A stretch of 64,000 nucleotides of DNA from a virus: positions 124,001 through 188,000 of the IMG/VR virus record IMGVR_UViG_3300009164_000038, one strand, 5' to 3'. The translations under genes and the position numbers were made by a program. The stretch's first letter is position 1; every line of letters starts with the position of its first letter. The notes under the pieces are model-generated. The model did no database searches, was not told where the DNA came from, and saw nothing but the letters and a program-made list of their open reading frames with translations. Positions 1 through 62,237 of the stretch are shown in pieces.

Positions 1-2124
<2,124 letters not shown>

Positions 2125-2492: not shown

Positions 2493-4160
2493 ATGAGCAA
2501 GAGATATCCTGGCGGAATAATTTCAGGATCGAATTATAATCCTACCAATATCAATGGTAGCGGATTTTGGACATTGTCGCAGCAGATGCAAAATAAACAA
2601 GCAGGTGTCTGGCCAGGTCCGGGACAATTGTCAATTGACTATATTATAGTTGGTGGCGGTGGCGGAGGGGGTACAGGTGATGCTGCTCTAGCTTGGCAAG
2701 GCGGTGGTGGCGGTGCCGGCGGTGTTGTGGTCAAAACTGGATTCATTACATCAACCGGATCATATACAGTTACTATAGGTGCAGGCGGGCCGGCAATTGT
2801 TTTAAACAGTGGTAATAGTACTGCTGCGCTATCCACTGGATTAAGTTCAACATTTAATGGATTTACTGCATTAGGTGGAGGACAAGGCGGCGGCAGTTAC
2901 ACCACGGGCACTGGAGTTCCGCAAGCATTACTGGCTGGAGGGTCTGGTGGAGGCATGTCGGGCATTGGCGCAGGTGCCGCTAATCAACCATCATCTGCCA
3001 GCGGCGGACTAGGCTTTGCAGGCGGCGCCGGTGGTGCAGCTACATATTCCAGTGGCGGCGGCGGCGCCGGCGGAGTTGGCGGGCTTGGAATTACAACTGC
3101 ATCAGGTCAGGGCGGAGTTGGATATACTTGGTTTGATGGAAATACATATGCCAGTGGTGGCGGTGGTGGTGCTGCTGGAGCCACAGTTACTAATGGATTA
3201 GGTGGGGGCCAGTCTGGAGCACTATTATTCAATGGCAGCAACTATCTAAGTGCAACCAATGCAGGAGGCTGGGTCAGCAGTGACCATACAGTTGAAGCTT
3301 GGATGTATATAACTACAATGCCAGACCCAGCAAACGCAAATCAGTACATCCGGGCATCTGCAATTGCAGCCGAAGGCGATGGTGCTAGTAGTGCCACGTG
3401 GCAATTTTACTTTCAACCCGGTGGGTTAACTGTTGTTTATAAAGCAGTTAACAATACACTATATTTTGTCTCTGCTGGATACACTTTCTCAACATTGACT
3501 TGGTATCACGTGGCATTTTCAAGATCGGGTACTACTGCTCGATTATTTGTTAATGGTGTACAGATTGCCACTGGAACAGTACCGGCTTGGACATCTCGGA
3601 CTATATTACAGATTGGACGTGGTGCTACATCAAGTTACACATATCCGTTCTATGGTTACATTACCAATTTTAGAATGGTAAATGGTATAGCAGTATACAC
3701 TGGCGATTTTACCCCGCCGGCGGGCCCATTGACTGCGGTGCAAGCTGCTAATCCTTTTGGTGGCAGTAATGTTGCCGCAGTTACAAGTGGCACTACTTCT
3801 GTATTATTAACAGCCTCATCATCGGCTGCTGCATTTACTGATACTGGTGCCTTTGGATATACTATAACCAACGTTGGTTCTGTCACATACTCTACATTAT
3901 CCCCAATTACAGCCGCTGGTCTTGGCGGCGGCGGCCGCGGTGGTAGTGTTCTCAATGCTGTGGCAGCAACAAATGGTATTGCAAATTCGGGAGGGGGCGG
4001 TGGCGGTAGCTACTATGATAATGTTCCAGGTGCAGGCGGTAGTGGACTAGTTGTTGTCAGATATCCTGGTTCTGCGGCCGCGGCCACTGGAGGAAATATA
4101 AGTATTAGTGGCGGTTATGTTTATCATGCATTTACTACCAGCGCGGCGTTTGTTGTGTAA
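2493..4160 (+). CDS. LamG-domain adhesin with glycine-rich domains (555 aa)
   Basis: The start MSKRYPGG is preceded by GAGGAAAT in the end of the upstream gene. The order is: short N-terminal segment; glycine-rich domain (about residues 47-240) with runs of G and the pattern G-S-Y-T-V-T-I-G-A-G-G; one LamG/concanavalin-like domain (about 243-413) ending in GYITNFRMVNGIAVYTGDF; and a second glycine-rich stretch (about 475-530). Family knowledge: LamG folds commonly bind glycans, and polyglycine domains occur in T4-like adhesins at fibre tips. Inference: a receptor-binding or capsule-contacting tail protein. Its N-terminus (MSKRYPGGII) matches that of the next giant gene (MAKKFPGGLI), suggesting a shared docking segment. 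Confidence 0.8.
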   Translation: MSKRYPGGIISGSNYNPTNINGSGFWTLSQQMQNKQAGVWPGPGQLSIDYIIVGGGGGGGTGDAALAWQGGGGGAGGVVVKTGFITSTGSYTVTIGAGGPAIVLNSGNSTAALSTGLSSTFNGFTALGGGQGGGSYTTGTGVPQALLAGGSGGGMSGIGAGAANQPSSASGGLGFAGGAGGAATYSSGGGGAGGVGGLGITTASGQGGVGYTWFDGNTYASGGGGGAAGATVTNGLGGGQSGALLFNGSNYLSATNAGGWVSSDHTVEAWMYITTMPDPANANQYIRASAIAAEGDGASSATWQFYFQPGGLTVVYKAVNNTLYFVSAGYTFSTLTWYHVAFSRSGTTARLFVNGVQIATGTVPAWTSRTILQIGRGATSSYTYPFYGYITNFRMVNGIAVYTGDFTPPAGPLTAVQAANPFGGSNVAAVTSGTTSVLLTASSSAAAFTDTGAFGYTITNVGSVTYSTLSPITAAGLGGGGRGGSVLNAVAATNGIANSGGGGGGSYYDNVPGAGGSGLVVVRYPGSAAAATGGNISISGGYVYHAFTTSAAFVV

Positions 4161-4172
4161 AATGGATCAATA

Positions 4173-7100
4173 ATGGCAAAAAAATTCCCAGGTGGACTAA
4201 TAACTTCAACTACAATATATCCAGCAGATGGTGGAGTTTGGTCCACGGCCGACACTGCCAAATATACAGGTGCAGATACTTGGACCACAAATGATCCCTA
4301 TAGAAAAAGTGTTATTTTAGAAATACAAGCTGATACCACAGCACCAGTATACAATACCGATGCTAGTTCAAACGCACTAACCGTTGTCCCAGCTGGCTCT
4401 GCTCGCCCAGATTTAAACAATCCATTCTTGCCAACTACTGGTCTTAACTATCCAGTCTATTTTGGTGGTGCTGCTCAATTAACAACAGCCGCAAACTCTG
4501 CTGCTTTTGCCACCGGAGTGGGAGATTTTACAGCAGAATGCTGGATATATATTAGCACACCCGGTACGGCAACTGAAGCAATTGCCAGCACAACCGCAGG
4601 TGGTAGTAATGCTGGGTGGCACTGGTTTATCAGTAACGCTAATGGCATGGGTATACGTAGTAACAGTAGTAATTGGGTAGTACCACCAAGTGCTGGACTT
4701 CCGGGGTCGGCTGGAAGCATACCAACTAACAGTTGGATGCATGTCGCTTATACCAGACGTGCAAATGTACATGCCTGTTGGATGAATGGCACATTAACAA
4801 ATAGTGCAACTCAAACAGTCAGCTGGACAGACAACGTGCTAATGATTGGAAATAGCAACACTGGTCAATTCTTTAATGGATACATTAATAACTTTAGATT
4901 TGTCAACGGTGTTGCACTATATGGAGCATCAGTGCCAACTACCCTGGCTGCCAATGTAACAGGAACATCGCTATTACTAAATGTAACTTCTGCGCCAACC
5001 TATATCACAGATTCCAGTGCCAATGCATTTACAGTGCTCAACCCAGCAACGTATCCAATCACCTACAGCACACTAACACCTGTGGACGCTGGTGGTAGTC
5101 TAGTAACTGCCAATTTGGTTTATCAACAATTGTTTACCAGCAATGCAACTTGGGTATGCCCTGCGGGTGTTACCAGTGTGTCGGCGGTAGCCGTTGGTGC
5201 AGGTGGCGGTGGCAACTCAGGCTGGAGTGGACACAATGGCTACTCTGGTGGCGAGGGCGGTGGCGGGGGTGGCCTGGGATGGCGAAATAACATCTCAGTA
5301 ACACCAGGAACCAGTTATACTGTTGTTGTTGGTTCAAGAGGGATTGGTGGCCCAAGTTCATTAGGCAGCGGTGGTGTGAGCATAGGTGGTGCCGGCGGCG
5401 ACAGTTACTTCATTAATAGAACAACTGTTTTAGGTGTTGGCGGCAGCGGCGCCATTAATAACACCGGCGGCGCTGGCGGATCATTTCTCGGTGATGGCGG
5501 CGGCCTCGGTGGTACTGGCGGAACAACAGCCACTGGAGCCACATTCGCTACTGCCGGCGGGGGCGGAGGTGGTGGATACACTGGTGCAGGCGGTAACGGC
5601 ATGTTTGGGCCAACTGGTAACGTTACTACAGCAGGTACAGGCGGAGGCGCTGGCGGCGGCTTGGGGTATTATGCTGGCAATGCACCTTACCCCATCGGCA
5701 CCGGTGGCGGCGGTGTTGGCGTACTTGGGCAAGGAACCAGTGGTAATGCAGCACCTGGGCTAAACCAAGAAACTTTTGGTGGATCGGCCGACTATGCACC
5801 TGGTGGCGCCCTATTTTTCAATGGTTCTAGTAGTTATTTGACTGTGCCTGCCAATGCAGCATTTAGTTTTGGAACTGGTGATTTCACCATGGAATGTTGG
5901 ATATATACAAGAAGTTTGGCTGCTACTCAACAAACTATTGATCTATTTAGCAATGCATCCGGATCATACATCGTTGGCCAATGCCAACTTCAATTGTTAA
6001 CTACTGGAGCAGTTGCTCTTGGTTATGCCACTGCCGCCTCCGCTGCTACCTTTTTTGGCACAGCAGCATCGGCAGTGACTATAAACTCTTGGTATCATAT
6101 TGCTGTGGTTCGTTCGGGCTCTGCCGTTGGAAACTTAAAAATTTATGTAAACGGCGTGCTTGCAGCAACCAGCCCAGGAGCATTGACCCAAGCCTTTGGT
6201 ACCACTGGTGGAATATCAATTGGTAGACAAACAAATGATTCTAGTAACGTCTTTTCTGGATACATAACTAATGCACGTATAGTCAAAGGTGTTGCAGTCT
6301 ATACAGGCAACTTCACACCACCCACTGCGCCACTGACTGCTACCCAGACTGGTAACCCAATACTTAACATTCAAGCAATTGCCAGTGCCAGTGCAACATC
6401 GCTATTATTGTTGTCTGCAAACAGTGCGGCATACATAACTGATTTGAGCACAACACCTAACACCATAACCAATACCGGAGTTATCTATAGATTAACAACA
6501 CCATTCGGTACTGGCAATGGTGGCGGCGCCCGTGGTTGGGCAGTAGGAGCACCCGGCGGCATAACTACACTGGGATATAATCCTGGCGGCGATTTTGGTG
6601 GTGGCGGTGGTGGTGGCAGTGATAACAGCGGCCAAGCACCTATAGGTGGTTATGGAGGCCAAGGCGCAGTACGTATAATATGGGGACCAGGCAGAAGTTT
6701 TCCTAATACGCTGACCACAGATCAAAGTCTAAACATACAGTATCTACAGGTGGCAAATAACGCTGCCTTCCAAGTCGGTGCTGGCGACTTTGCAGTAGAT
6801 CTTTGGATATATCCAACTACCGTAGTTGGACTACAGCGAGTATTCTCCATTTCAAATAGCACAATCGCTAGCAATGCAGACGAAGGCATCGTACTTGAAA
6901 TGAATAATGCTGCAATGACTGCAACCATATATTCAGGAGTTACTGCTTATACTATCACAGAATCTGCAGGTGTACTATCACCAAATATTTGGTACTATTA
7001 TCGATTAATACGCACAGGTACCACATTGTCGTTGTATAGGACCGCCGGACTCAGCGGTTCGGTAGCAGTGTCAACTGTATCAGTCAACTGGTCTGCCAGC

Positions 7101-10100
7101 TTCCAAACCTATATAGGTGCTTGGATAAATGGACCCAGCAGACCATTCGTTGGATACATTACCAACATTCGTGTAGTTAAAGGCACGCTGGTAATTGTCA
7201 CTGGCAACTTTACACCATCAACTGTGCCGTTGACAGCCGTACAAGATTTAAACGTAAACGGATTTCCGTCAGCTGCAATCACAGCCGGTCAAACTAAATT
7301 ATTAGCATTGCAGAATAGCACGTTTGTTGACAATTCTGGAAATAATTTAACTTTAACAAATACCAATGCTGCCATCAGACCCACTCAAGCTCGTGCGCCG
7401 TTTGCTAGTGCGTTAACATTGTCTGGCGATAATGCTACACTGGGTTCAACTTATTTTAACGGTACTACAGATTACTTTACCATTGCAGATGCACCTGAGT
7501 TTAATATTGGAGTATTGAATACTACACTAGAAGCTTGGATATGGACTACGCTGACTACTCCTACTGGAGCTGTATTTGCCAAGCGTGGCACAACAGCATT
7601 ATTTTCTGGTTACCAATTGGCATTTGCAAGTACACTGGCACCAGTATTCAATGCCAGTACAGATGGTGCAACTTGGACGGTGGCGATTACATCAAATGCG
7701 TCTATTAAGGCCGGACTATGGAATCACGTAGCAGTTACTAAATCCAGTAATACGTGGTCGGTATGGGTCAATGGTAATATAAGCGGTACTGCAACAGTTG
7801 CAGGAAATGTACATACTAATGTGGCACCATTGTCAATTGGTAGTGGTGCAGGAACCACACCGGGTTTATATTGGACCGGCTATATTAGCAACTTCCGTAA
7901 AGTATTAGGCATTGCGGTCTATACTGGTAATTTTACGCCGTCTACGTCATCACTGACATCAACACAAGCATCTGGAACTAATATTACTGCAATTGATCAG
8001 CCAGTAGTAAAAAATTACAGTGTGTATTTGAATGGTGTTAACCAATATTTGACTGCGCCAAATAATACCGGGTATGTATTTGGCGCAGCTGAGTTTACAG
8101 TTGAAACTTGGATATATGTTACAGATATAACTAGAGCCAATGCAAGCATTGTGAGTTTGTGGACCACTGCCGGTGGTAAAGCATTCCAGATGCGTACAAT
8201 GAGTGGCAACATACGTGTAGATTATAACACTACACTATTTCAATCATCGCCGTCTAGTGTAATTGCAGCCAATACCTGGTACCATGTAGCATGGGTCAAA
8301 TCAACTGCAAACTCTAATGTTTATCTCAATGGGTCGTTGGTTAGTTCGGTTGCAGCCCCGGCTAGTATCACAGCGTCCACTGCGCTATTGTCGGTGGGCT
8401 TTGGACTTGATGGCCAAGGTACTACTTACTATTTCCCTGGCTATATTAGCAACATGAGATTGGTAAAAGGTGTGGCCATTTACACAGCCAACTTTACGCC
8501 CGCTACTACAGCATTGACATCATCACAGACAGCTAATCAAAATGGTGTACCATCACGGGCCATTGTTGGTGCCGGCTCAGCATCCTACAGCTATTCGTTT
8601 AGTGGTAGTAACTATTTGACAATTCCTACTAGTACAACATTCCAATTTGGTACAGATAATTTTACTGCCGAAGCTTGGGTTTATAGATCTATAGCTTGGA
8701 CAGCACAAAATATATTTTTTGGACAATGGTCTGGATCTACTGGCGGTACAACTCTGTCTTGGGTTGTCATGACCAGTAATAATGTCAGTGGGTTTGCTAG
8801 ATTTTTGTTATCCGTTGACGGGTCGACAGTACTAACAGATAGTGTATCAAGCTCGGTTATAGCGTTAAATCAATGGAATCACCTGGCGTTTGTCAGAAAT
8901 GGCGATATATTTACCCTATACCTAAATGGTACTTCGGTTGTGACATATTCAAGTGGTACACCCAGTCTTTATGCTGCAACAAATACCATATCCATTGGAG
9001 CATCCAGCGCAGGTACACAACCATTCACTGGCTATATAAGCAATTTCAGGCTTGTTAAAAGCATAGCAGTTTACACTACTACGTTTACGCCAGCTACAGC
9101 CTCGTTGACTAACGTACAAACAGCCAATCAAAATGGATTACCATCTGCTGCTATCAACTATGCCGCCGCGTACAGTGGAGTGTTCAATGGTTTGACACAA
9201 TATCTATATGTACCAGGAACCAATTCGCAATTTGCTTTTGGCACTGGTGATTTCACAATTGAAATGTGGATATATCAAAATGCTCGTTCTGCAACTAATG
9301 GATGGTTATATGATTCTCGACCGGCTGGAACCGGTAGCGGTGCTAGTCATGTATGTTTTGGTGTAGGTCCTGCTGGTGAAATTTTTAACGGTACAATTTC
9401 TCTTAACACTTGGTATCACATTGCGATTTGTAGGAGTGGTACAACTCAGACTACATATATCAATGGTGTACAATCCTCTAGCGGCACCAGTACTACAAAT
9501 TGGTTAAACGGCACTAATAGACCAATAATTGGTACAGATGGTAATGTTCCATTATCACCTGGCTACATTTTTAATGGTTATATTACTAATTTACGTGTAG
9601 TTAAAGGAGTAGCAGTATACACTGGCAACTTTACAGTACCAACCTTGCCACTGGCAACTACACAAAGTTCTAGTAGTAACATAGCAGCTATCACCGGATT
9701 GCAAACCAGCATGTTAACATTACAAGGCGCAGCTATAACAGATGCAAGTGCATATGTAAACACAATCACCAACGTTGGCGGCACAACAGCATCTTTACTA
9801 ACACCAACCTTACCACCAAAATATTACTATGCAAGTTTTAATGGTAGTACACAGTATTTGACTGTACCACATTCAACTGCAATTAATCTTAGTACTGGTG
9901 ATTTTACTATTGAAGCATGGGTATATACTACTGTATTAAACGGTCAAAACGGTATATTTGGTAAGAGAGAATTACTACAATACATTGGTGTAATATTTCG
10001 TGTACTTAATACCACAAATAAATTAGTCATGCAAATTGCTAGTTCATCTGGTACATCATGGGCAATTGATTCTAATCTTGATTTTGGTTTACCAGCACTA

Positions 10101-13100
10101 ACAACAAACACTTGGTACCATGTAGCATTGGTTAGAAGTGGCAGTTCATTTAGGATATATCAAAATGGTGTGGGCGGTACAGTCTATACCTATGCTGGAA
10201 CTATTTCACATACTACTGCTCCAGGGTATATCGGTAAATCAGATGGTGCATCGGGCGACCAATTCTGGAATGGCTATATTAGTAATTTCAGAATTGTAAA
10301 AGATGTCGCAGTCTACACTGGCAACTTTACACCACCTACCATTCAATTATCTACTATACAAAATGCCAGCAGTAATATTGCTGCCGTGACTGGAACACAG
10401 GCCAGCTTGTTAACTTTGCAAAATAATACTATTATAGATAATAGTGCAAATTCAGCAGCAATAACTAATGTTGGTGGCATTTCAATTGCTACCGACTCCA
10501 CACAAATTCCAGCTTATGTAATAGTATTAACTGCGCAAGCGGCAACCATTGTAGACAATAGTACACTGCCAGTGTCCATCACCAATACCGGTACAGTAAC
10601 CAGTATTGCAGTTAATCCATTCACCAGTACCACCAGCTTGCTAATAGCTCAGTCTAGAACTATTGTTGACACCAGCGGCGGCGCTATTGCTATTACCAAC
10701 CAAGGTGTAACCGGCGTTAGCGTGAACAATCCATTTACTGCCTATGCCGGTACCAGTGTATTGACCAGTCAGTACAACGTATCAAATAATAACAATTTCT
10801 TCTCGGACAACAGCTTTAATAACTATTTAATTGTTAGAGCAGGTACTGCTACACAAGGCGCAGTGAATCCGTTTGTAACTGGTTGGAGTTATCAATTCAA
10901 CGGATCCACTGACTACTACACAGCGAGCACTGCCATCGAGTGGGCATTCTTACACAATGGTATTGAAGATTGGACTGTGAGATTTTGGATATATCCAAGA
11001 AGCTCATCACTAATGGTTCCGCTAGCCACAACCAATGTGGCCGGTCAAACTGGGATCAGTATTGAACTTAACAATACCACCTATGGTGGTGTAACTGGCA
11101 GCATGTCCGTGGTGTTCTTTAATGCCACTGGTAGCGCCGTTACCAACCCGGCATTTAATTCAAATCCGGTAGTAGTATTAAACCAGTGGAACTACATAGC
11201 GGTTACTTTTACAGCTAATACAAAAACAGTTGGTTTTTATATTAACGGTCTAGCAGCTGGCTCAAGTAGCTTACCATCGTTTGTGTACAATACTGCGGCG
11301 CCGACTAACACATTAAATATTGGTAGAAATCCGGCTGGTACTGCATATTTTTCGGGATACATATCTAATTTACAAATTGATAAAGGTGTCCAGTCTACAG
11401 TACAACCAATTGCGCCACTAACCACTGTGGCAGGCACCGGCACATACAGTGTATTATTCAATGGTACTACTTCTTATTTGGCAGCGCCATTGGCAGTAGT
11501 AACAACATTAACTAGTGACTACACAGTCGAAGCATGGATCTACATGACCGCTGTTGCAACTGGTATTACATACGCTACCTCAGTTAATATTATTAGTGGT
11601 AATGTGGGAGTTACTAGTTATCAAACTTGGGGTATTACTAATGCTGGATATATTGTAGCAGCAAGAAATGGCCTTAGCTATCAAACAGTAACAGCAACAA
11701 CACCAAGTTTAAATACTTGGACACACATAGCTTTTGTAAATCGATCAAATACGGTAACAGTATACCTGGCAGGAAATAATGTTGGTACTATTGCCCAGAC
11801 TGGAACATGGGGAACCACAGCTAATACTACAGTCATTGGTGGGTGGTCAGGCACAGGTGGCAAATTCACTGGACATATTTCTAACCTACGTGTAACAAAT
11901 GGACAAGCCCTGTACACAGCAAACTTTACTCCATCAACTACAGCAATTTCCAATGTTACAACTAATTATAGTACTAATTTTGCACTGCTAGCAAGTAGTT
12001 TAAGTTTCAATGGTACAACCCAGTATATATCTATTACAGGAACTACAGGCGATGCTTTAGATTTAGCAACCGGTGCTCTAAATTGGACCATAGAGACTTG
12101 GTTTTATCTTACCAGTGTTGCATCTAATCGTGTAATATTTGGAAAAGGTGGCGCAACTGGCACCGTGAATCCTTCATATATTTTTAATATCAATGCCGGA
12201 ACTGGAACATGGACCTTGGGCAACGGTGGATCCGGCGCAGCGGCAGCACAAACCATAATTGGCACCTTTGTGATATCTACTTGGTATCATTTTGCATTAG
12301 TGCGTAACGGAAATACAATAACTGCATATGTAAATGGGGTATCACAAACTCCTGTATCTCTGGCTGCCGTTATGAGTAATACTGGTAATAATTTATTAAC
12401 GATTGGTGCTAATTCCGACGGCAATCTTCTTCCCTTTGCAGGTTATATTTCTAATTTCCGTATTGTTAAAGGTCTAGCTGTATATACCAGCAATTTTGTT
12501 GTTTCCACAGGCCAATTGACTAGTACACAAATTGCTAATCAGAATGGCAATCCTTCTGCGGCAATACCAAATTTGAGTTATACGTCATTGCTATTAAACG
12601 GTACAGCAGGATATATCACCGATACCGGGGGCTATAGTCTAACTGTGACTAATACCAACCTTGTTGTATCTGCCGACATAGCGCCAGCACTTAATTCTTT
12701 ACCAGCATATTCAACAGTACCAGACAATGTAGCATTACAAATGGGTACCGGGGATTTCACCATTGAAGCATGGATCTATTATACAACAACCACTGGGCCA
12801 ACTTATTTTGTTGGAACTGGGTCGGGTGCAGGTACATATCGGATTGGTGTTAACAATGCAACTGGCGCAGTTGTATTTTACTCGGTTAATAATATATTAT
12901 TAATTACTACTCCTACTAATACTATAACAATTAATACATGGGCACATGTAGCTGCGGTAAGAGCTAGTGGAATAATAACAATATATATCAATGGCCAAGC
13001 AATGGCAAGTGCTGCCAATCTTGACAACTATTCAGCTGGATTGACGGCAATTGGCTCATGGAGCGCAACAACTGTATCGTCTTGGGCAGGTTATTTGACA

Positions 13101-15371
13101 AATCTTCGAATAACAAAAGGTGCAGCAATATATCAATCTATTGCTTTTACTGTTCCTACTGTAGGACTAACAACAATAACACAACCCGTTGTTCCTTATA
13201 GCGTATATTTCAATGGTAGCAGTTACTTGACTGCTACTAGTAATAGTTTTGTTATAGGCACCGGCGACTTTACAGTAGAGTGTTGGGTATGGGTTGACCC
13301 TGCAGCTGATAGTCTAGCAGGTATTGTAACTAGTACAACTCAAACAACATCAGGATTTATACTTGCACGTAACGGTGCCGGTATTGCTAATGCAAATAGC
13401 GCAGGTGTAAATTTTATTTCGTGGACATTACCGACTAGTACTTGGACACATGTTGTATTAACCATGCAATCTAATAGATTATTTGCTTTTGTCAATGGTA
13501 CGTTTATCAGCTCAATGACTTCTACATTTTCTAATTTGTCCGACACTGTTCGATTGGGTAGTAGATACGCAGATTCTAATCCGTTTCCGTTTATCGGCTA
13601 CATAAGTAATCTTAGAATTCTAAGTGGTGTTGCACTATATACTACAGTTAATTTCCTACCGCCAACAACATCATTAACTGCTATCGCTAATACTATATTT
13701 TTAACTGCACAATCAGCTACTGCAATTGATAATAGTACCAATGCCATTTCAATAACTGCCACTGGCAATCCTGCTTTTAACAGTGGCGGATCATCTGTTC
13801 CTTTTGGTTATACTAATTTACTTGCAGCAAGATCTAGCACTCTCACTGATTCTGGACCTTATGCATTTACTTTAACCAATGTAGGGCCACCAACTACCAC
13901 GGCACTTGTTAATCCGTTTGGTACTGGTATTACCAATTTGCTCGCTGCTGGTAATGCTACTGTTGTAGATTCTAGTGTTAATGCATATGCAATGGTCAAT
14001 AATTTGGCTACAGTGTCGACGGCAAGTCCGTTTGCAGCTGGTACTAGTTTATTAACTTTAAAAGATAGCTATGCAGTGGATCGATCAGTTTATGCTAGAA
14101 CATTAACCAGGGCAGGTACACCCACTGTTGAAAACTTTTCACCATATCCACCAGCTGGCAGCTGGTCAAATTCTGCATACGGCGGAACTGTGGTACTAAA
14201 TGGTACCGCAGATTATTTAAATTTACCGGCTAGCTCGTTGGTATTGGGCATAAGCAATTTTACATTAGAATGTTGGTTTTATTCTTTTGGTCTACTAACT
14301 GCACAGCCTAAATTAATTGACAACTTTATTGGTATTGCAGCAGCATTCCAAACTGGGCAATGGCAGCTGGGATTTAGTGCAACTGGACTTTTACAATTTG
14401 GTTATGCTACCGGTGTTAGTACCACAGTATATGTAACCGGAACTGTTGCACTATTACCAAATCAATTTTATCATGTGGCTGTAGTTCGTACCGGGACCGG
14501 CACAAACCAAATAACTATATATGTTAACGGAGCAGTCTATGCCCAAGGTACAATAGCTGACAGTTTTGGTGTTGCGGGTACCACCACAGGCGGCAGTATT
14601 GGTCGTCAAACTGGTAGCAATACACTATTTTTCAATGGCTATATAGGCGGTATTCGATTAGTCAACGGTACTGCACTGTACACCAGTGCATTTACACCAC
14701 CTGCGGCCCCTCCGACTACGGTTGCAAATACTGCATTATTAATTGGCAATACTGTAACTTCTGCTATTAACGATCCCTCGTCGAGGAGCGCGATCAGAAG
14801 TGTAGCAGGCGCAGCACAAGTAGTCAACTCAGTTTACCGGTATGGCACAGGATCTGTTTATTTTAACGGATCTAGTAACTACCTAACAGTACCCTACTCG
14901 GATGTCAAGTTTAACTTTGGTGCTGTATCCGATTTTACTATCGAATTTTGGATGCGTGCCGCAGCACTACCGGGTACTTCTGCACAGTTATTTGACACCA
15001 GACCGGCATCAACTAACGGGGCGTATCATCTTATCTATTTAAGCAGTGATGGAACTGTTAGATATTATGTCAGCACAGCAGACAGGATTACCAGCGCAGC
15101 CAGCGCAATTGCTATTAATACATGGTATCATATTGCTCTAGTTCGTTATGTTAATACCACTACTTTGTATATAAATGGTGTAGTAGCTGGAACCCCATGG
15201 GCTGATACTACCGCATATATAAGTGCAAGCATAGTGAATATCGGAGCCGGCTACAGCGGCGGTGCAACAATATCCAACTATTTCAACGGTTACATTGATG
15301 ATTTACGTGTAACCAAGAGCGTGGCCAGATACACCGGTGCATTCACTCCACCAAGCAAGATGGTTTCTTAA
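4173..15371 (+). CDS. Giant multi-LamG adhesin, 3732 aa with 15 LamG-like domains
   Basis: One uninterrupted frame of 11.2 kb. The N-terminal MAKKFPGGLI segment is followed by 15 LamG-like units, each recognisable by F.GTGDFT.E.WIY near its start, NTWYH.A.VR in the middle and GYISN.R.VKG.AVYT..FTP at its end. Approximate domain ends in bases: 4925, 6320, 7220, 7945, 8505, 9095, 9645, 10335, 11420, 11940, 12510, 13160, 13670, 14710, 15360. Glycine-rich blocks lie after domain 1 (about residues 312-529) and domain 2 (about 776-839). Linkers follow the pattern SLLTLQ....DNS.....ITN.G. There is no signal peptide or transmembrane helix, as expected for a phage tail component. Inference: an extended tail fibre or multivalent glycan-binding adhesin. 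A tandem array of this length is unusual; assembly error cannot be excluded, but the copies are diverged. Confidence 0.85.
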   Translation: MAKKFPGGLITSTTIYPADGGVWSTADTAKYTGADTWTTNDPYRKSVILEIQADTTAPVYNTDASSNALTVVPAGSARPDLNNPFLPTTGLNYPVYFGGAAQLTTAANSAAFATGVGDFTAECWIYISTPGTATEAIASTTAGGSNAGWHWFISNANGMGIRSNSSNWVVPPSAGLPGSAGSIPTNSWMHVAYTRRANVHACWMNGTLTNSATQTVSWTDNVLMIGNSNTGQFFNGYINNFRFVNGVALYGASVPTTLAANVTGTSLLLNVTSAPTYITDSSANAFTVLNPATYPITYSTLTPVDAGGSLVTANLVYQQLFTSNATWVCPAGVTSVSAVAVGAGGGGNSGWSGHNGYSGGEGGGGGGLGWRNNISVTPGTSYTVVVGSRGIGGPSSLGSGGVSIGGAGGDSYFINRTTVLGVGGSGAINNTGGAGGSFLGDGGGLGGTGGTTATGATFATAGGGGGGGYTGAGGNGMFGPTGNVTTAGTGGGAGGGLGYYAGNAPYPIGTGGGGVGVLGQGTSGNAAPGLNQETFGGSADYAPGGALFFNGSSSYLTVPANAAFSFGTGDFTMECWIYTRSLAATQQTIDLFSNASGSYIVGQCQLQLLTTGAVALGYATAASAATFFGTAASAVTINSWYHIAVVRSGSAVGNLKIYVNGVLAATSPGALTQAFGTTGGISIGRQTNDSSNVFSGYITNARIVKGVAVYTGNFTPPTAPLTATQTGNPILNIQAIASASATSLLLLSANSAAYITDLSTTPNTITNTGVIYRLTTPFGTGNGGGARGWAVGAPGGITTLGYNPGGDFGGGGGGGSDNSGQAPIGGYGGQGAVRIIWGPGRSFPNTLTTDQSLNIQYLQVANNAAFQVGAGDFAVDLWIYPTTVVGLQRVFSISNSTIASNADEGIVLEMNNAAMTATIYSGVTAYTITESAGVLSPNIWYYYRLIRTGTTLSLYRTAGLSGSVAVSTVSVNWSASFQTYIGAWINGPSRPFVGYITNIRVVKGTLVIVTGNFTPSTVPLTAVQDLNVNGFPSAAITAGQTKLLALQNSTFVDNSGNNLTLTNTNAAIRPTQARAPFASALTLSGDNATLGSTYFNGTTDYFTIADAPEFNIGVLNTTLEAWIWTTLTTPTGAVFAKRGTTALFSGYQLAFASTLAPVFNASTDGATWTVAITSNASIKAGLWNHVAVTKSSNTWSVWVNGNISGTATVAGNVHTNVAPLSIGSGAGTTPGLYWTGYISNFRKVLGIAVYTGNFTPSTSSLTSTQASGTNITAIDQPVVKNYSVYLNGVNQYLTAPNNTGYVFGAAEFTVETWIYVTDITRANASIVSLWTTAGGKAFQMRTMSGNIRVDYNTTLFQSSPSSVIAANTWYHVAWVKSTANSNVYLNGSLVSSVAAPASITASTALLSVGFGLDGQGTTYYFPGYISNMRLVKGVAIYTANFTPATTALTSSQTANQNGVPSRAIVGAGSASYSYSFSGSNYLTIPTSTTFQFGTDNFTAEAWVYRSIAWTAQNIFFGQWSGSTGGTTLSWVVMTSNNVSGFARFLLSVDGSTVLTDSVSSSVIALNQWNHLAFVRNGDIFTLYLNGTSVVTYSSGTPSLYAATNTISIGASSAGTQPFTGYISNFRLVKSIAVYTTTFTPATASLTNVQTANQNGLPSAAINYAAAYSGVFNGLTQYLYVPGTNSQFAFGTGDFTIEMWIYQNARSATNGWLYDSRPAGTGSGASHVCFGVGPAGEIFNGTISLNTWYHIAICRSGTTQTTYINGVQSSSGTSTTNWLNGTNRPIIGTDGNVPLSPGYIFNGYITNLRVVKGVAVYTGNFTVPTLPLATTQSSSSNIAAITGLQTSMLTLQGAAITDASAYVNTITNVGGTTASLLTPTLPPKYYYASFNGSTQYLTVPHSTAINLSTGDFTIEAWVYTTVLNGQNGIFGKRELLQYIGVIFRVLNTTNKLVMQIASSSGTSWAIDSNLDFGLPALTTNTWYHVALVRSGSSFRIYQNGVGGTVYTYAGTISHTTAPGYIGKSDGASGDQFWNGYISNFRIVKDVAVYTGNFTPPTIQLSTIQNASSNIAAVTGTQASLLTLQNNTIIDNSANSAAITNVGGISIATDSTQIPAYVIVLTAQAATIVDNSTLPVSITNTGTVTSIAVNPFTSTTSLLIAQSRTIVDTSGGAIAITNQGVTGVSVNNPFTAYAGTSVLTSQYNVSNNNNFFSDNSFNNYLIVRAGTATQGAVNPFVTGWSYQFNGSTDYYTASTAIEWAFLHNGIEDWTVRFWIYPRSSSLMVPLATTNVAGQTGISIELNNTTYGGVTGSMSVVFFNATGSAVTNPAFNSNPVVVLNQWNYIAVTFTANTKTVGFYINGLAAGSSSLPSFVYNTAAPTNTLNIGRNPAGTAYFSGYISNLQIDKGVQSTVQPIAPLTTVAGTGTYSVLFNGTTSYLAAPLAVVTTLTSDYTVEAWIYMTAVATGITYATSVNIISGNVGVTSYQTWGITNAGYIVAARNGLSYQTVTATTPSLNTWTHIAFVNRSNTVTVYLAGNNVGTIAQTGTWGTTANTTVIGGWSGTGGKFTGHISNLRVTNGQALYTANFTPSTTAISNVTTNYSTNFALLASSLSFNGTTQYISITGTTGDALDLATGALNWTIETWFYLTSVASNRVIFGKGGATGTVNPSYIFNINAGTGTWTLGNGGSGAAAAQTIIGTFVISTWYHFALVRNGNTITAYVNGVSQTPVSLAAVMSNTGNNLLTIGANSDGNLLPFAGYISNFRIVKGLAVYTSNFVVSTGQLTSTQIANQNGNPSAAIPNLSYTSLLLNGTAGYITDTGGYSLTVTNTNLVVSADIAPALNSLPAYSTVPDNVALQMGTGDFTIEAWIYYTTTTGPTYFVGTGSGAGTYRIGVNNATGAVVFYSVNNILLITTPTNTITINTWAHVAAVRASGIITIYINGQAMASAANLDNYSAGLTAIGSWSATTVSSWAGYLTNLRITKGAAIYQSIAFTVPTVGLTTITQPVVPYSVYFNGSSYLTATSNSFVIGTGDFTVECWVWVDPAADSLAGIVTSTTQTTSGFILARNGAGIANANSAGVNFISWTLPTSTWTHVVLTMQSNRLFAFVNGTFISSMTSTFSNLSDTVRLGSRYADSNPFPFIGYISNLRILSGVALYTTVNFLPPTTSLTAIANTIFLTAQSATAIDNSTNAISITATGNPAFNSGGSSVPFGYTNLLAARSSTLTDSGPYAFTLTNVGPPTTTALVNPFGTGITNLLAAGNATVVDSSVNAYAMVNNLATVSTASPFAAGTSLLTLKDSYAVDRSVYARTLTRAGTPTVENFSPYPPAGSWSNSAYGGTVVLNGTADYLNLPASSLVLGISNFTLECWFYSFGLLTAQPKLIDNFIGIAAAFQTGQWQLGFSATGLLQFGYATGVSTTVYVTGTVALLPNQFYHVAVVRTGTGTNQITIYVNGAVYAQGTIADSFGVAGTTTGGSIGRQTGSNTLFFNGYIGGIRLVNGTALYTSAFTPPAAPPTTVANTALLIGNTVTSAINDPSSRSAIRSVAGAAQVVNSVYRYGTGSVYFNGSSNYLTVPYSDVKFNFGAVSDFTIEFWMRAAALPGTSAQLFDTRPASTNGAYHLIYLSSDGTVRYYVSTADRITSAASAIAINTWYHIALVRYVNTTTLYINGVVAGTPWADTTAYISASIVNIGAGYSGGATISNYFNGYIDDLRVTKSVARYTGAFTPPSKMVS
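4450..15360 (+). repeat. Array of 15 diverged LamG-like protein domains
   Basis: Each unit spans about 480-540 bp and is separated by linkers of 30-200 residues. Copies are diverged at DNA level but keep the same anchor motifs. Two stretches (about 10390-10880 and 13690-14140) contain several linker repeats with no LamG domain between them, as expected from deletion or shuffling of whole domains. Confidence 0.85.
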
Positions 15372-29112: not shown

Positions 29113-32100
29113 ATGACAATAAGTAGCTCATTTTCATCAAACGTCACAGTCGAAACACTGGTAGTAGCCGGCGGCGGTGGCGGCGGCACAAACTATAACC
29201 TGCGTGGCGCAGGTGGCGGAGCAGGGGGATTAGTTTACATTGGTAATCTACGGATACCAGCTGGATCCACAGCCAACGTCATAGTTGGCAGCGGCGGCAA
29301 TGTTTCGGCTCGCGGCGGCGATAGTGCTATACTGCCTTACGTGCCCACATACAGTCACTGGTTTAATGGTTATAGCACTTTTGATTATCTTACTGTTGCA
29401 ACCACAACATCTAATGTCACAACATCTGCAGCTGGCAGTTTGAGTTTCAGCGGAACCTCACAGTATTTGTCAATAACCGGAACTACTAGTGGTCCGCTTG
29501 ATCTGGCAGCAGGTGCAGGAAACTGGACAGTTGAGTTATGGGTGTATCCTCGGTCAGTGACAGGCGAACAAGTTTTCTTTTGGAAAGGTGGTACTACCAG
29601 TTCTTTCAACCCATCATATGCAGCATTCATGAGCGGATCTGGTGGACAATTTATTGTTGGTGATGGCGGCGCAGCAGGTGCCAACATTAACTTCCCATCT
29701 GGTACTTTTGCCATCAATACTTGGCATCATTTTGCTCTAGTACGCAGCGGAACCAACTTTACTGCATGGGTAAATGGCGCAGTAGCCGGTACTCCATTTA
29801 CTACGGCATTCACCATGAGTAATACTGATAACAACACATTGACTATAGGTAGTAGTGTTGCCGACGGCTCTACTAGATATTTTAATGGATTAATCACCAA
29901 TTTCCGTATTGTTAAAGGTACAGCAGTATATACCGCAGCCTTTAGTCCTCGGGTGCCGCTTGGCATTGTTACTGGTACATCATTATTGCTATCGGTTAAG
30001 AGTGATGCTAATAAACTAGTAGACGCTAGCGTTAATAACACTGTAGTAAACAATGTTAACGCAGCCACTTTTAGCACAACTGTACCATCGGTGGTATCGG
30101 CAGTTTACCCTCTAACATTCTTTTTCAATGACTTTACAGTAGAAGCATGGATCTATCTCAATGCTTATGGAGCCACCTACACCGGCATTGTTGATACCAG
30201 AACCGGCGCACTAGCTCAGCCTTGGGCGTTTGGACTTAACGGCACCAGCCTTGATTTCTTCTGGGGAACCGGCGCAACCACTAGAGCTACCAGTAGTATG
30301 CGTGTTCCAACCGGGCAGTGGACACATGTGGCGGCCACTCGACAAAATGGAAATGTTTATCTATACATAAACGGATATCAAGACGTTACCTCAGTGGCTG
30401 CGGCTAGTGGTGCCGGTGCCAACATTGCTCAAACCAGCAGTAGCATATGGATTGGTAATTTAAGAGATGGTGCTGCTACTGGACAGAACACATATTCGGC
30501 TAACGTTTACATTTCCAATTTGCGTACCGTAAATGGCACAGCAGTTTATACTGCCAACTTTACACCACAGACCACTAACTTGTCCAACATTGCAGGCACG
30601 ACAATGTTGACTTTGCAGAACAGCACATTAGTCGACAATGGTCCATATAACTTACCAATCGTAAAATATTACGGCAGCGTAAGTCCCAGCATATTTTCAC
30701 AGACCACACCGTCAACTGATGGATACGCCAGCGTCTACTTCAATGGTGCAACCCTGTTGCAGTACACCAACTCAACAGCACTGACTACAGTACCTGCTGT
30801 TGATACCAGTGTTAATCAATTTACCGTGACCAGTACAGCATCAATACCAAACGTGATTGCAACAGCACCTGCAATTACACCATTGGGCACTGTAAACAGT
30901 ATAAGTTTTGCTGGTAGCCAATATTTAACGGTAACAGCAAACGCCGCCTTTGCATATGGCACTGGTAGTTTTACTGTTGAGTGTTGGGTTTATATAACTA
31001 CAGCTTTGGTTGCTGGTGCGTTTGTTGGTCCATGGACTGGTACCGCAGCAACCAGCTCTTGGGTTTTTACACAAGGCAGTCCTACTGCTACTAATTTAAG
31101 ATTCGGTGTTTCAGATGGAACAACAGCAACATTTTATCAAGGCGGTGGGGGATTATCCATAAACACATGGATACATGTAGCTGCGGTTAGAAATGGTACT
31201 ACACTGACATTGTATTCCAATGGCACATCAGTATCCACAAACGCTGGTATTTCTACAAACATATCAGTCGCATCACAGGCACTACAAATTAACGGTATCG
31301 CAGGAGCAACTTTTTTAACAACTGGTTACATATCCAATCTACGTATAGTCAAAGGTGCAGCAGTCTACACTGGCAATTTTACAGTACCCACTGCCCCATT
31401 AACTATTACTCAAAGTTCCAGTGGCGCAAATATAGCAGCCATTACGGGCTCACAAACCAGCCTGTTACTGCAACCCGTTGCTGGATGGACAGCAGAATGT
31501 TGGGTCAATCCTTCGGGTGACTATAGTACTTATAGGACCGTATTTGCCAAACGTGTAAATGCCACAGCCACTACCGAATATGAGGGTTACCTGCGATTGA
31601 CCAGTGGTGTTATCAGTTTCTATAACGGAACCAATTACGAAAGCACAACAACATTAACTGCCAACACCTGGAGCCACTGTGCCTGGGTTTACACTGGAAC
31701 CAATATTGTTATCTATGTAAACGGGACGCAAGTATACACAAGCGCAGTCACTATCACCACCAATACTGAACCCATGATTATTGGCGGTGTTAGGACCGGT
31801 AGTGAATATTTTCTTGGATATTTAAGTAACTTCCGTTTTACCAGAGGAATGGTATATACCGGCGCATTTACTCCACCCACTAGACCATTTGCCGCAACTC
31901 AAACTGTGTCGGGAAACATTGCTGCTATCACTGGCAATATAGATAATAGAACTAATCTACTAGTACTACAAAGCAGCACCTACAAAGACAACAGTGCGAA
32001 CAACTATCTATACGGTTACACATACACCATCAACACCGGCACGCCATTAATCAAAACCGATGTTGTACCATTTATAGACCCCGTCCGCGGCGTAATTGCC

Positions 32101-33645: not shown

Positions 33646-35226
33646 ATGTCGTTTAGTCAAATAACTTCTGTAGATCTAATAGTAAATCAAATTGTTACTA
33701 TTGTTACCAAGTATGATCCATCGTCTATAGCTGGCATTAATACAGCAGGCGACATAGTGCCGCTTGAGACTGTTATAAAAACCAGTAGCAATGTAGGAGT
33801 AGGGCAAAGATATACTAGATCTGAATTAGCTAACGTAATACAAACCGCAGATTCAGTTAGCCGTTTTGGTAATACTACGTTTGCCTATAGCAATCAGGCC
33901 AACGCTATCAGTACGCCTCTGCTACCAGCATTAGAATTAACTAACAATAATGTTGGTGGCCAGGCTGTTATTGCAGGCGCAGGATTAGCCAGCGGTAGTG
34001 TGCTACTTAACGGTACTACTCAATCACTGACAGCAAATACAGCAGCTACATGGACTTACCTACATAATGGGTTGCAGGATTATACAATAGAATGTTGGTA
34101 CTATAGCAGAGCAACAACATATCAAAATCTATTAGGCACCAGTGGAGTAACTACATCCATTGGATTTGAGTTGTCAATAAACAATCCCACAGTGGGCGCA
34201 GTGACAGTAGTTTATACCAGAGGTGTATCAACTAATAACACATGGACTTATGCTAATAGTGCTGTTGCCACCGGGGGCTGGTATCATGTAGCAACAACTT
34301 TTGCCAGCAGTACAAAAAGATCAAATATTTATGTAAATGGTAACCTGGCAGGTACTGCTGCTAACGTAGCATTTGCTTATAGCGCATCTGCACCAACAAA
34401 CACATTGGGTATTGGGTTTACAACGGCCACCGGTCAATTTAACGGTCAAATAACTAATGTGCGTATAACTAAATCTATTGTATATACCGCAAACTTTACA
34501 CCAACAATACCATTGACTAATATCAGCAATACACAATTATTATTGCAGTTTAATTCCAGTGGTGCGTTGTTAACTGATTCAAGTTCTAACAATAATACTA
34601 TTACCAACGTTGGGGTGGCAACATACTCTACTATAGTACCACCACTTACATCCACTGTAGCCGCAGTAAACAATTATTACAATTACTCGCGATTGTATTT
34701 CAACGGTGGATTGAATATACCCTACGGAGATATTACATCAAATGTACTAGCATCTGGCAGCCCAGTCAATACCTATACAAATCCAACCGGTGCCATGCTG
34801 AATCCAAATGCTAGCATACTAACTACTGGCACAGCATCTAAATCTGGCGTATATGACATACCTGTTTCAGTTACAGTAATTAGTCCTATCAATTACATAA
34901 CTCCGCAATCTACGCTTAATCAACGGGTAGCTTATGAGTTTAGCAATCCGACAGTATCGAGTTCTCGATATTTTGTTGCAAATGGTGCTAATGTAAATTC
35001 GGTAACAAATATTAATCCAAATATTATTATAGTTAATGCACAGCCTGAATTTATGTTAGTTAATTCGGATAAAAACTTTGTGGCCAGTAATGTTAATCCA
35101 ACCAATTACCAAACGATTGAAGCGGTAACCCCTGCAAACGATCCTAGACTAGCATCAATTAAAACTGGATTCATTGTTAAAGGTCAAACGGGAACTAATC
35201 CGTATAATCCACAAAACGTTTATTAA
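33646..35226 (+). CDS. LamG adhesin with one LamG domain (526 aa)
   Basis: N-terminal segment SVDLIVNQIVTIVTKYD is like that of the 1471-aa adhesin; one LamG domain lies at about residues 116-289 (WYHVATTF...NGQITNVRITKSIVYTANFTP); the C-terminal domain is shared with the 1505-aa adhesin. It therefore looks like a minimal version of the larger neighbours, with N- and C-modules flanking a single lectin-like domain. No Shine-Dalgarno precedes the ATG. Inference: tail adhesin, last gene of the 35 kb adhesin locus. Confidence 0.8.
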   Translation: MSFSQITSVDLIVNQIVTIVTKYDPSSIAGINTAGDIVPLETVIKTSSNVGVGQRYTRSELANVIQTADSVSRFGNTTFAYSNQANAISTPLLPALELTNNNVGGQAVIAGAGLASGSVLLNGTTQSLTANTAATWTYLHNGLQDYTIECWYYSRATTYQNLLGTSGVTTSIGFELSINNPTVGAVTVVYTRGVSTNNTWTYANSAVATGGWYHVATTFASSTKRSNIYVNGNLAGTAANVAFAYSASAPTNTLGIGFTTATGQFNGQITNVRITKSIVYTANFTPTIPLTNISNTQLLLQFNSSGALLTDSSSNNNTITNVGVATYSTIVPPLTSTVAAVNNYYNYSRLYFNGGLNIPYGDITSNVLASGSPVNTYTNPTGAMLNPNASILTTGTASKSGVYDIPVSVTVISPINYITPQSTLNQRVAYEFSNPTVSSSRYFVANGANVNSVTNINPNIIIVNAQPEFMLVNSDKNFVASNVNPTNYQTIEAVTPANDPRLASIKTGFIVKGQTGTNPYNPQNVY

Positions 35227-35256
35227 AGGTTTATTTTTTGCAGCAATGAGTGTATA

Positions 35257-35264
35257 CTTAAATA
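35257..35264 (+). promoter_or_regulatory. T4-late-like box CTTAAATA adjacent to start codon
   Basis: Ends 4 nt before the ATG of the glycosyltransferase gene, without a Shine-Dalgarno. Confidence 0.4.
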
Positions 35265-35268
35265 CACT

Positions 35269-38200: not shown

Positions 38201-38628
38201 GATTTGATTATTTGTTTAGTGTTGATAGTGATATATCGTTTGAAAAAAACACACTACAAAAATTATTAGCACATGACAAAGATATAGTCTCTGGATTATA
38301 TATACAACGTATTCCTGGTACACAAACAGTGGAAATTTACGAACACAATCAATTTGGTGGCGTTGTAAACATTCCGTATGATAGATTAAAAAATCAAGGT
38401 TTAGTAAGTATTGCCAGTTGTGGATTTGGCTGTGTATTAGTTAAGAAACAAGTATTTCAACACGTTGGATACCCGCAATTTGAATATCATCCAGCCATTA
38501 GTCACAGTAATACAATTTCTGAAGATGTTGATTTTTGTAAAAAAGCATTAGCTAAAGGATTCGGCATCTTTGCTGATACTTCTATTTTATGTAATCATAT
38601 TGGTAGTTACAACTTTGAAATTAAATAA
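35269..38628 (+). CDS. Four-module glycosyltransferase (1119 aa)
   Basis: Module 1 (about 1-420) is GT4/GT-B-like: GLGGSESAVTFMARELA near the N-terminus and PETFGISILES with an E-x7-E pair at E297/E305. Module 2 (about 440-690) is GT2/GT-A: STFYNCQDYIARCIESV, DDKSTDNT and the metal motif LDGDD. Module 3 (about 695-925) is a diverged GT2-like fold with VVPTMWR and VNDDVLFD. Module 4 (about 922-1119) is another GT-A-like domain with SVDSDISF. No signal peptide or transmembrane segment, so it is cytosolic. The stop overlaps the start of the first FkbM gene (TAATG). Inference: builds a glycan of several sugars, on virion adhesins or on a host envelope precursor. Fusion of four modules is unusual in a phage. 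Confidence 0.85.
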   Translation: MKIAIIDIIGLPYDGTTVFKQGLGGSESAVTFMARELAQIGFDVTVFNNCNIDQSQAGVYDLVTYCPLTDLALEHSFDIVISSRTVIPFVDSIDYHKLQDNRAFALQPYNLYQRILAQAKMRILWMHDTFCLGDNLIEELVVSNRITDIFTLSDFHLTYVANCNHGRRRNFEVLKRKLFITRNGANCYVPEVDIAAKDRNLFVYNASVTKGMIPLVNEIWPRVKAQIPEARLKIIGGYYRFSSASEPDAQEQDWRRMVADPKYTNWGIEFLGVIPQQQIGSILAQSNFMIYPCAFPETFGISILESLLYNTPVITCRFGAAEEVALEGASYLIDYPIEPNSLFPDVNTAQQIDQFVAMTVRAYNDTYLHQQKQYYCNIIKPLAGWDTVALQWKQLFFHRAGKYLSRQQYQQVTKINRQVHKVWQRRYHNSIELENYKTGAEQEIIIVSTFYNCQDYIARCIESVAAQDYDNYQHILIDDKSTDNTVEVVLATIDALPEYLRNRFDIVSNNERLGAVYNQVASIREIENPNAIVMILDGDDSLINDNTIFNYYNAIYDGSTEFTYGSCWSMVDTIPLISQPYPESVKQAKSYRQHHFNWILPYTHLRTFRKYLIEDIPDSNFQDSTGKWFKAGGDGSTFYSLIEAADPAQVKCLQQIVYNYNDANPLNDYKVNSKEQTATANAIINKKSESYMIPDIKKYSIVVPTMWRLKEQFVSFINQLCSHPAVDEIIIIDNDNTQTPRLLHEKIKIKDFGKNIYVNPAWNVGLEISRNERICIVNDDVLFDMSLFEKLQDLITPDVGVFGLSPGVSDFNQPLYVDGTIDIIPWTNQHTYGFGCLMFMHKDSWQPIPEGLQIYYGDNYIFDLQLSRNKTNYLITNVIFHTPFAVTTSDTSITGGFLDKETIVYQQVNPLTNKNTMPIPNKKRILIAIPTAKYIEPETFKSIYDLIVPDDCEVTFQYFFGYRVDQVRNLIADWVVTGFDYLFSVDSDISFEKNTLQKLLAHDKDIVSGLYIQRIPGTQTVEIYEHNQFGGVVNIPYDRLKNQGLVSIASCGFGCVLVKKQVFQHVGYPQFEYHPAISHSNTISEDVDFCKKALAKGFGIFADTSILCNHIGSYNFEIK

Positions 38629-39982: not shown

Positions 39983-39999
39983 CAATGGTGTTACAGGCA

Positions 40000-41987: not shown

Positions 41988-41988
41988 G

Positions 41989-61166: not shown

Positions 61167-62237
61167 ATGGCGAAACCATTTGACGTAAGTAAATTTAGAA
61201 AAACTATCACCAAAGCAATTGACGGCATTGGCTTTGGATTCAATGATCCTACAGACTGGATCAGTACAAACAACTATGCATTGAACTACCTTATCTCGGG
61301 TGAGTTTAATAAAGGAATTCCTTTAGGCAAAGTAACAGTATTTGCTGGAGAGTCTGGCGCAGGTAAGAGCTTCATCTGTAGCGGCAATCTAGTTAAAAAT
61401 GCACAATCACAGGGCATTTATGTTATCTTAATTGATACAGAAAATGCATTAGATGAAAAATGGCTACATGATCTTGGAGTAGATACCACCGAGAGTAAGT
61501 TACTTAAACTTAACATGGCTATGATTGACGATGTAGCTAGAATGATCAGTGAGTTTGTTAAAGAATATAAATCAATCCCAGAAGGCGATCGTCCTAAGGT
61601 ATTGTTTGTATTAGACAGTCTCGGTATGATGTTAACACCAACAGATGTTAACCAATTTGAAGCAGGTGACATGAAAGGTGATATGGGCCGAAAGCCTAAA
61701 GCACTTACAAGTCTTGTTCGTAATTGTGTTAACATGTTTGGTAACTTGAACTTAGGGTTGGTATGTACCAATCATACATACGCAAGCCAAGACATGTTTG
61801 ACCCAGATGACAAGATTAGCGGCGGGCAAGGATTTATCTATGCAAGTAGTATTGTAGTTGCTATGAAGAAACTCAAACTCAAAGAAGATGAAGATGGCAA
61901 TAAGATATCAGAAGTAAAAGGTATCCGTGCCGCGTGTAAGATTATGAAAACACGTTATGCCAAGCCCTTTGAAAGTGTACAAGTTAAGATTCCATATGAA
62001 ACAGGTATGAATCCTTACAGTGGACTAACTGATTTGATTGAAGCACGTAATATGCTCAAGAAAGAAGGTAATAGTTTAGTGTACACTACAGCAGACGGAG
62101 AGATCATTAAGAAGTTCCGTAAGGCGTGGGAACGCAACGACGAGGAATGTTTGGACAAAGTGATGGCAGATATTGAGGCCAATCCTAACATTGCGCAGAA
62201 TAAAGATGTTACAATAGCCGACGAGGAGTTAATATGA
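61167..62237 (+). CDS. uvsX: UvsX RecA-like recombinase (356 aa)
   Basis: Walker A GESGAGKS at residues 61-68, Walker B VLFVLDSLG with D150, and loop regions GDMKGDMGRKPKALTSLVRN and GGQGFIYASSIVVAMKKL. This is the T4 UvsX pattern (T4: 391 aa). Forms filaments on ssDNA for strand exchange in recombination-dependent replication, loaded by UvsY onto gp32-coated DNA. AGGAG before the ATG. Its stop overlaps the next start by ATGA. The gene probably shares the gp32 transcript. Confidence 0.95.
   Translation: MAKPFDVSKFRKTITKAIDGIGFGFNDPTDWISTNNYALNYLISGEFNKGIPLGKVTVFAGESGAGKSFICSGNLVKNAQSQGIYVILIDTENALDEKWLHDLGVDTTESKLLKLNMAMIDDVARMISEFVKEYKSIPEGDRPKVLFVLDSLGMMLTPTDVNQFEAGDMKGDMGRKPKALTSLVRNCVNMFGNLNLGLVCTNHTYASQDMFDPDDKISGGQGFIYASSIVVAMKKLKLKEDEDGNKISEVKGIRAACKIMKTRYAKPFESVQVKIPYETGMNPYSGLTDLIEARNMLKKEGNSLVYTTADGEIIKKFRKAWERNDEECLDKVMADIEANPNIAQNKDVTIADEELI

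Follow-up and report, generated by a model that had tools for sequence, protein, structure and literature searches.

A giant LamG gene of a T4-like myophage appears to be reshuffled one domain at a time

The giant LamG gene in IMG/VR virus record IMGVR_UViG_3300009164_000038 raises the question of how a tandem array of like domains changes and where its joins fall. The window, the 64,000-nucleotide stretch analysed here, covers positions 124,001 to 188,000 of this record, which is 199,181 bases long. A sequence-only reading had proposed an adhesin that evolves by recombination at linker DNA and bears the scars of lost domains. Comparison with related phages places most of the joins elsewhere. 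The product is most probably an adhesin on the particle of a T4-like myophage, with LamG bodies that serve as recombinational cassettes, and these phages appear to reshuffle this probable host-binding surface one domain at a time.

The open reading frame and other features of the window are collected in Table 1. Pfam Laminin_G_3 (PF13385) matches the giant protein in 15 stretches with a whole-protein E of 1e-233 and a score of 766 bits (curated cut-off 27.6), which places the protein in this family, and every LamG unit exceeds the cut-off when taken singly. A custom LamG profile likewise finds exactly 15 units, bearing out the number first read from the 3732-residue frame. Across the whole record, the 26 Laminin_G_3 matches are spread over the giant gene and six other genes. 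An AlphaFold2 model of units 3 and 4 with the linker between them (LamG3-k-LamG4) has a pLDDT of 84, and its top Foldseek matches, at E about 1e-13, are LG domains of laminin and neurexin; VIA gives a Z of about 20 across some 200 residues. On this model, the LamG units have a predicted concanavalin-like / LG jelly-roll fold. Recent duplication of LamG units within the gene was considered and rejected, the nearest pair being only about 40% identical in amino acids.

Table 1. Positions of features discussed in the text, in window coordinates unless residues are stated; k is the SLLTLQ linker motif, and L011, L012 and L016 are related contigs.
Feature	Position	Strand	Remarks
Collagen-like repeat	7-348		Tandem 36-nt repeat, 9.5 copies, Gly-X-Y (YTGSIGARGPTG), directly before the baseplate and LamG genes
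Baseplate wedge-tail fibre connector homologue	727-2124		Upstream of the giant gene
Giant LamG gene	4173..15371	+	3732 aa, ATG start, one uninterrupted frame
Glycine-rich segment of giant protein	residues about 324-529		One copy
LamG unit 2 (E1)	5823..6287	+	Unrelated unit in its place in L012
Units 6, 7, 8 and three k (E2)	8572..10633	+	Missing in L012; 2061 nt, 687 codons, in frame
LamG unit 8 (E3)	9843..10301	+	Body replaced in L011, 34% aa identity
Linker run 1	10404..10853	+	Four k, no LamG between, after LamG8
Unit 11 and following k (E4)	11968..12703	+	Missing in L011; 735 nt, 245 codons, in frame
Linker run 2	13692..14126	+	Four k, no LamG between, after LamG13
LamG unit 15	14868..15317	+	dS 0.16 against L012; other orthologous units of L012 0.55-1.25
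Tail and k of gene 29113-33630	31322..31470	+	Match L016:769-914 at 86%
526-aa LamG gene	33646..35226	+	L016 orthologue has an extra LamG, tail and k between window 33973 and 33994
Glycosyltransferase fusion (GT1 + GT2), then two FkbM methyltransferases	35269-39982		Within the structural gene cluster
Short gene block including gp15 tail sheath stabiliser	40000-43092	-	Inside a long plus-strand run
Tail sheath	47107-50514		1135 aa; nearest jumbo phages, e.g. Agrobacterium phage Atu_ph07, over ~60% of length only
RecA-family recombinase (UvsX-like)	61167..62237	+	Candidate recombination machinery

The giant gene sits among tail and baseplate genes, a context expected of an adhesin or receptor-binding protein. 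Downstream lie a gene for a cyanophage-type virion structural protein and more LamG genes, then the glycosyltransferase and two FkbM methyltransferase genes; the gp15 tail sheath stabiliser, tail sheath, tail tube and terminase genes follow farther on. The downstream LamG-neighbour protein is nearest to cyanophages, unlike the tail sheath. On the giant protein itself, PHROG families 3545, 24074 and 13163 (baseplate wedge subunit) give 14-15 matches each. Judged by its neighbours and families, which point to virion location and binding, the giant protein is most likely a multivalent virion adhesin of the baseplate or tail-fibre region of a T4-like myophage.

A recurrent linker motif, SLLTLQ and its surroundings, here called k, occurs in 15 copies among the LamG bodies (L), in the order k L k L k L k L L L L k L kkkk L L L k L L kkkk L k L. 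One k stands ahead of LamG1, single copies follow LamG 1, 2, 3, 7, 11 and 14, the others lie in runs, and the last LamG forms the C-terminal end. The motif is as recurrent as first noticed, although it does not follow each domain, as had been supposed: it is present in 8 of the 14 inter-domain gaps and absent after units 4, 5, 6, 9, 10 and 12.

A k profile seeded with the giant-gene copies and iterated over the LamG ORFs of related viral contigs recovers 278 copies in 164 of these ORFs (consensus TSLLTCQSNTFVDNSTNNFTITRNGNP). A scan of all ORFs finds k without a LamG domain in just one ORF, and on both counts the motif is not a product of chance. A 3040-aa ORF at L012:3671-12790 has a k-like match and no LamG match. 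In single-LamG settings, k lines up with the well-known opening of phage LamG proteins (SLLLNGNGTNGSTTFTDSS... ahead of YFDGSGDYL) and is therefore better regarded as an edge piece of the LamG module than as an inert linker. In the LamG3-k-LamG4 model, ~200 residues within positions 1 to about 229 (the first body and k) align with complete LamG/pentraxin domains; since these residues include k, the motif would, on this model, contribute to the fold of the preceding LamG body. Sequence comparison with an arabinanase LamG domain (5ho0) instead aligns k ahead of the following body.

A scan of IMG/VR for relatives, all of which are metagenome contigs, yielded two syntenic orthologues of the giant gene, L011 (3492 aa, 14 LamG units) and L012 (3047 aa, 12 LamG units). 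An array that does not recombine would be expected to keep the same 15 units in colinear order in all related phages, and the opposite is found, with 15, 14 and 12 units. Events were mapped with a codon-level identity profile and change-point estimates. The DNA identity profile falls to 38-61% in single-unit blocks within gene sequence of 75-100%, and comparison with the orthologues reveals one three-unit gap, one one-unit gap and three single-unit replacements.

The three-unit gap takes in one single k and two k of run 1; it runs from the tail that separates unit 5 from the next domain to the opening codon of run 1's third k. Replacement of the unit 8 body is bounded by breakpoints at 9847 and 10296, with L011 flanks that are about 90-95% identical and with both flanking k kept. 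The position of unit 11, empty in L011, is filled in L012 by an unrelated unit. Either gap may be a loss or a gain, as the next relatives, L092 and L093, are without orthologous units.

The LamG and glycine-rich gene at 2493-4160, ahead of the giant gene, keeps its LamG in L011. At the same place in L012 (L012:13171-14148) lies a 326-aa protein with a glycine-rich domain and no LamG, a possible further domain-level change.

Synonymous divergence between the window and L011 ranges from 0.008 to 0.88 among units. Unit 15 is 92-99% identical to L012 in DNA, against about 75-80% for the remainder of the gene, and its low dS therefore indicates recent homologous exchange. The domain at the C-terminal tip was apparently passed from one lineage to another in this way.

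Breakpoints fall at LamG edges or between domains, as expected of a domain-mosaic phage structural protein. None of the 7 well-resolved breakpoints lies inside a LamG core, and the median one is 22 nt away from a LamG edge (P about 0.005-0.006 under random placement). When all ten are counted, one lies inside LamG (P 0.008 and 0.002); this exception is the weakly resolved left breakpoint at 5910, with a likelihood gain of only 11. The tendency is weaker in a wider, rough survey of the family, in which 44 match ends sit closer to LamG edges than chance would place them (median 38.5 nt, P 0.00015). Inside LamG cores, 18 of the 44 were found against 24.6 expected, a modest effect drawn from correlated data in which some contigs may carry assembly faults.

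The LamG body has conserved ends, YFNGS at its start and RIVKGVAVYTGNFTPPT at its end. The right-hand seams of the unit 2 and unit 8 replacements fall within DNA encoding RIVKGVAVYTGNFTPPT, and this DNA is the strongest repeat family within the giant gene (D1). Recombination, as proposed by the sequence-only reading, is upheld by the varying unit number and by units that are replaced or common to other genes, but the swap seams are mostly the conserved ends of LamG bodies rather than the SLLTLQ linker itself, and k can be left in the backbone when a body is swapped.

Exchange extends to other LamG genes. The contig L016 is otherwise syntenic with window 33994-42595 at 84-89%, and the extra module in its orthologue of the 526-aa LamG gene measures 699 nt (233 codons) and is in frame. 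The LamG body of this module matches unit 2 of the giant array, at window 5812-6346, with 88% DNA identity over 535 gapless nt, and its tail and k match a third LamG gene, at 29113-33630. The module therefore combines sequence like two other LamG genes, and the change-over lies inside an RIVKGxAVYTGNFT segment. Unit 2 is thus a fragment common to otherwise different proteins with unrelated flanks, the mark of a domain mosaic.

A tree of units, in which bootstrap support is not fully settled and deep forks are weak, gathers equivalent units into colinear clades, while it pairs L016 unit 1 with window unit 2 (support 100/97) and L012 unit 2 with a unit of the otherwise distant phage L019 (100/99). 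Window unit 11 joins a unit of gene 29113-33630 (100/99), which is its closest relative at 54% aa, and window unit 9 joins the unit of gene 33646-35226; a phylogeny against LamG units of neighbouring genes, suggested earlier as a check, thus ties two units of the array to those genes. The pattern recurs in the wider family: L013 unit 8 and L015 unit 6 are 96% identical although their remaining units do not exceed 40%, and L045 unit 3 and L047 unit 4 are 98% identical.

Fast evolution of host-binding surfaces is common. Units might accordingly diverge fast in place under positive selection, without exchange, although no result here points that way beyond this generality. The replaced units stand at paralogue-level identity (34-43% aa) with abrupt edges, they have different tree relatives, and in the case of unit 2 the intact copy in another L016 gene contradicts divergence in place. 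Such an explanation is scarcely credible.

A different concern is that the differences are assembly chimeras of metagenomes at repeated LamG units and not biology. The relatives are all metagenomic contigs, and the events are few. In addition, two pairs of near-identical contigs (L033 and L041; L018 and L035) are set apart by indels of about 140 nt whose position coincides with a LamG edge. These indels are possibly assembly faults at repeats, and they urge caution in automated calling of domain loss. A candidate unit-3 swap between L033 and L041 was dropped on finding a deletion of about 141 nt, possibly itself an assembly fault. Within the giant gene, however, the longest exact repeat is 19 nt. 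Frame is kept in all events (687 and 245 codons, and 233 in L016), the replaced units are unrelated to any unit of the other contigs, and dS differs unit by unit, as real recombination predicts. Chimeric assembly is therefore a very unlikely source of the pattern.

The two stretches in which linkers follow one another without a LamG are real, and they had been interpreted as domain-loss scars. In a tally of k, 271 are single, 7 double, 4 triple and 4 quadruple; true tandem runs are fewer, because some doubles and triples of other contigs enclose a glycine-rich stretch between k. An independent, true four-k run occurs in L092. Run 1 holds four k in the window, four in L011 and two in L012, the change in L012 being the three-unit gap. 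Run 2 holds four k in the window, four in L012, and three recognisable and one degenerate in L011. A scan for run-1 linkers finds only L011, L012 and one weak relative.

According to the scar model, the runs are leftovers of LamG bodies deleted between linkers, and the protein shrinks through recombination at linker DNA. The rarity of runs fits this model, since k between LamG units is nearly always single (271 against 15 longer runs), as does the right end of the three-unit gap in L012, which falls exactly at the third k of run 1. Every k in a run also keeps its NPF tail, as though the following body had been excised. Scars should drift, yet dN/dS between the window and L012 stays low, at 0.12 in run 1 (k3-k4) and 0.22 in run 2, compared with 0.12 for single k and 0.16 for LamG bodies. 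Linkers within runs are under purifying selection, like single linkers, which speaks against decaying scars. Run 2 is found in all three phages, and the compared phages offer no instance in which two k have lost the LamG body between them. The L012 junction resembles an ordinary tail-to-k joint, and units 6-8 may equally be an insertion in the window lineage. Linkers inside runs are no more alike than other pairs (41% versus 38%), a result that, with no exact repeat longer than 19 nt, also disposes of recent tandem duplication as the origin of the runs. Gain and loss at linkers is accepted; the stronger claim that the runs are scars is not, and a shrinking protein remains a doubtful account of the gene.

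A structural role for the runs is close to an even prospect. They might form a separate module, such as a spacer or LamG-fold edge strands, while recombination affects the surrounding bodies. Purifying selection on run k and the independent run in L092 are consistent with such a role, and so is the LamG-k-LamG model, in which k appears to be part of the fold of the first LamG. The structure model of run 1 itself is too poor to interpret (mean pLDDT 60, with 36-53 across the linkers), and sequence instead puts k before the LamG body, both in the 5ho0 alignment and ahead of LamG1.

In the favoured cassette reading, LamG bodies would act as recombinational cassettes in a tandem array of carbohydrate-binding-type domains. 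Short conserved DNA at the body ends (YFNGS; GYISNxRIVKGVAVYTGNFTPPT) would let non-equivalent units pair and cross over, either during co-infection or between genes within one genome. One to three units would thereby be replaced, gained or lost in frame, and the backbone of k linkers, adjoining units and adjoining genes would remain in place. Homology-assisted crossover is the molecular step that we infer behind what is observed directly in the ORF and its units, namely replacements, gaps, a cross-gene copy, and breakpoints near unit edges or between units. Pairing would need to tolerate mismatches or use microhomology, because exact repeats within the gene reach at most 19 nt. The agent may be a RecA/UvsX-family recombinase; the record holds a RecA-family gene only, with no match to the single-strand annealing recombinases RecT and Rad52. 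Altered ligand range would be the benefit. A diversity-generating retroelement was also considered and appears unlikely, as the 199-kb record, which may be incomplete, contains no RVT_1 match to a reverse transcriptase.

A broader proposal, which is improbable, holds that LamG cassettes with two standard seams, YFNGS and RIVKGVAVYTGNFT, form a pool common to aquatic myophages and travel from gene to gene and from one phage lineage to another. The k linkers, including the tandem runs, would then be landing sites where blocks of one to several units enter or leave. If true, the landing-site reading would amount to a dedicated, linker-based rebuilding of a multivalent host-binding protein.

Mosaic events in receptor-binding proteins are rarely fresh enough for the joins to be located. 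The giant gene offers several events of different ages with exact edges, plus one unit in two genes. It permits questions about the DNA of the seams, about domain turnover versus point changes, and about the effect on the host of swapping one of 15 domains. If the pattern is family-wide, cassette exchange could explain much of the hypervariable host-recognition region of aquatic myophages.

Jumbo phages are described as bearing Laminin G3 and concanavalin-fold lectin domains on their tail fibres and virions (PMC7824862), and in pelagimyophages the host recognition clusters carry concanavalin A domains, collagen repeats and glycosyltransferases (PMC7029224). The giant gene has the same domain type and lies in the same kind of structural cluster, with glycosyltransferases and collagen-like repeats. 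The glycosyltransferase fusion and the two FkbM methyltransferase genes behind it also resemble the content of pelagimyophage host recognition islands. Exchange of single LamG units and the k linker are absent from the available passages of both papers (PMC7824862; PMC7029224), and those on pelagimyophage islands describe variability at the level of genes (PMC7029224). Virion structural and baseplate wedge proteins of cyanophages (Synechococcus phages S-H9-1, S-SKS1 and S-RIM32) contain homologous LamG units at 28-35% aa. The matched part is far shorter in every record but one: Phage DSL-LC04 is 88% covered, and coverage elsewhere is at most 59%. No close cultured relative of the giant protein appears among the database matches.

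Diversity-generating retroelements on phage tail tips likewise diversify a host-binding protein, but they do so by point changes in a variable repeat, whereas the giant gene varies by whole domains. Domain mosaicism in phage receptor-binding proteins is already known: tail proteins undergo ongoing shuffling of domain-sized fragments, and receptor-binding proteins are among the most affected (Nat Commun 2023, PMC10684548). There, mosaicism emerges from profile comparison across unrelated proteins, and a word search of the available text returns neither 'lectin' nor 'linker' (PMC10684548). Here, by contrast, orthologues at about 75-95% DNA identity are compared, the events lie inside one long tandem array, breakpoints are placed to tens of nt, and transfer runs between paralogous genes. 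Within the papers searched, and as far as their available passages extend, the new elements are the unit-by-unit exchange of a LamG array, the mapped seams, the retained k and the transfer between genes.
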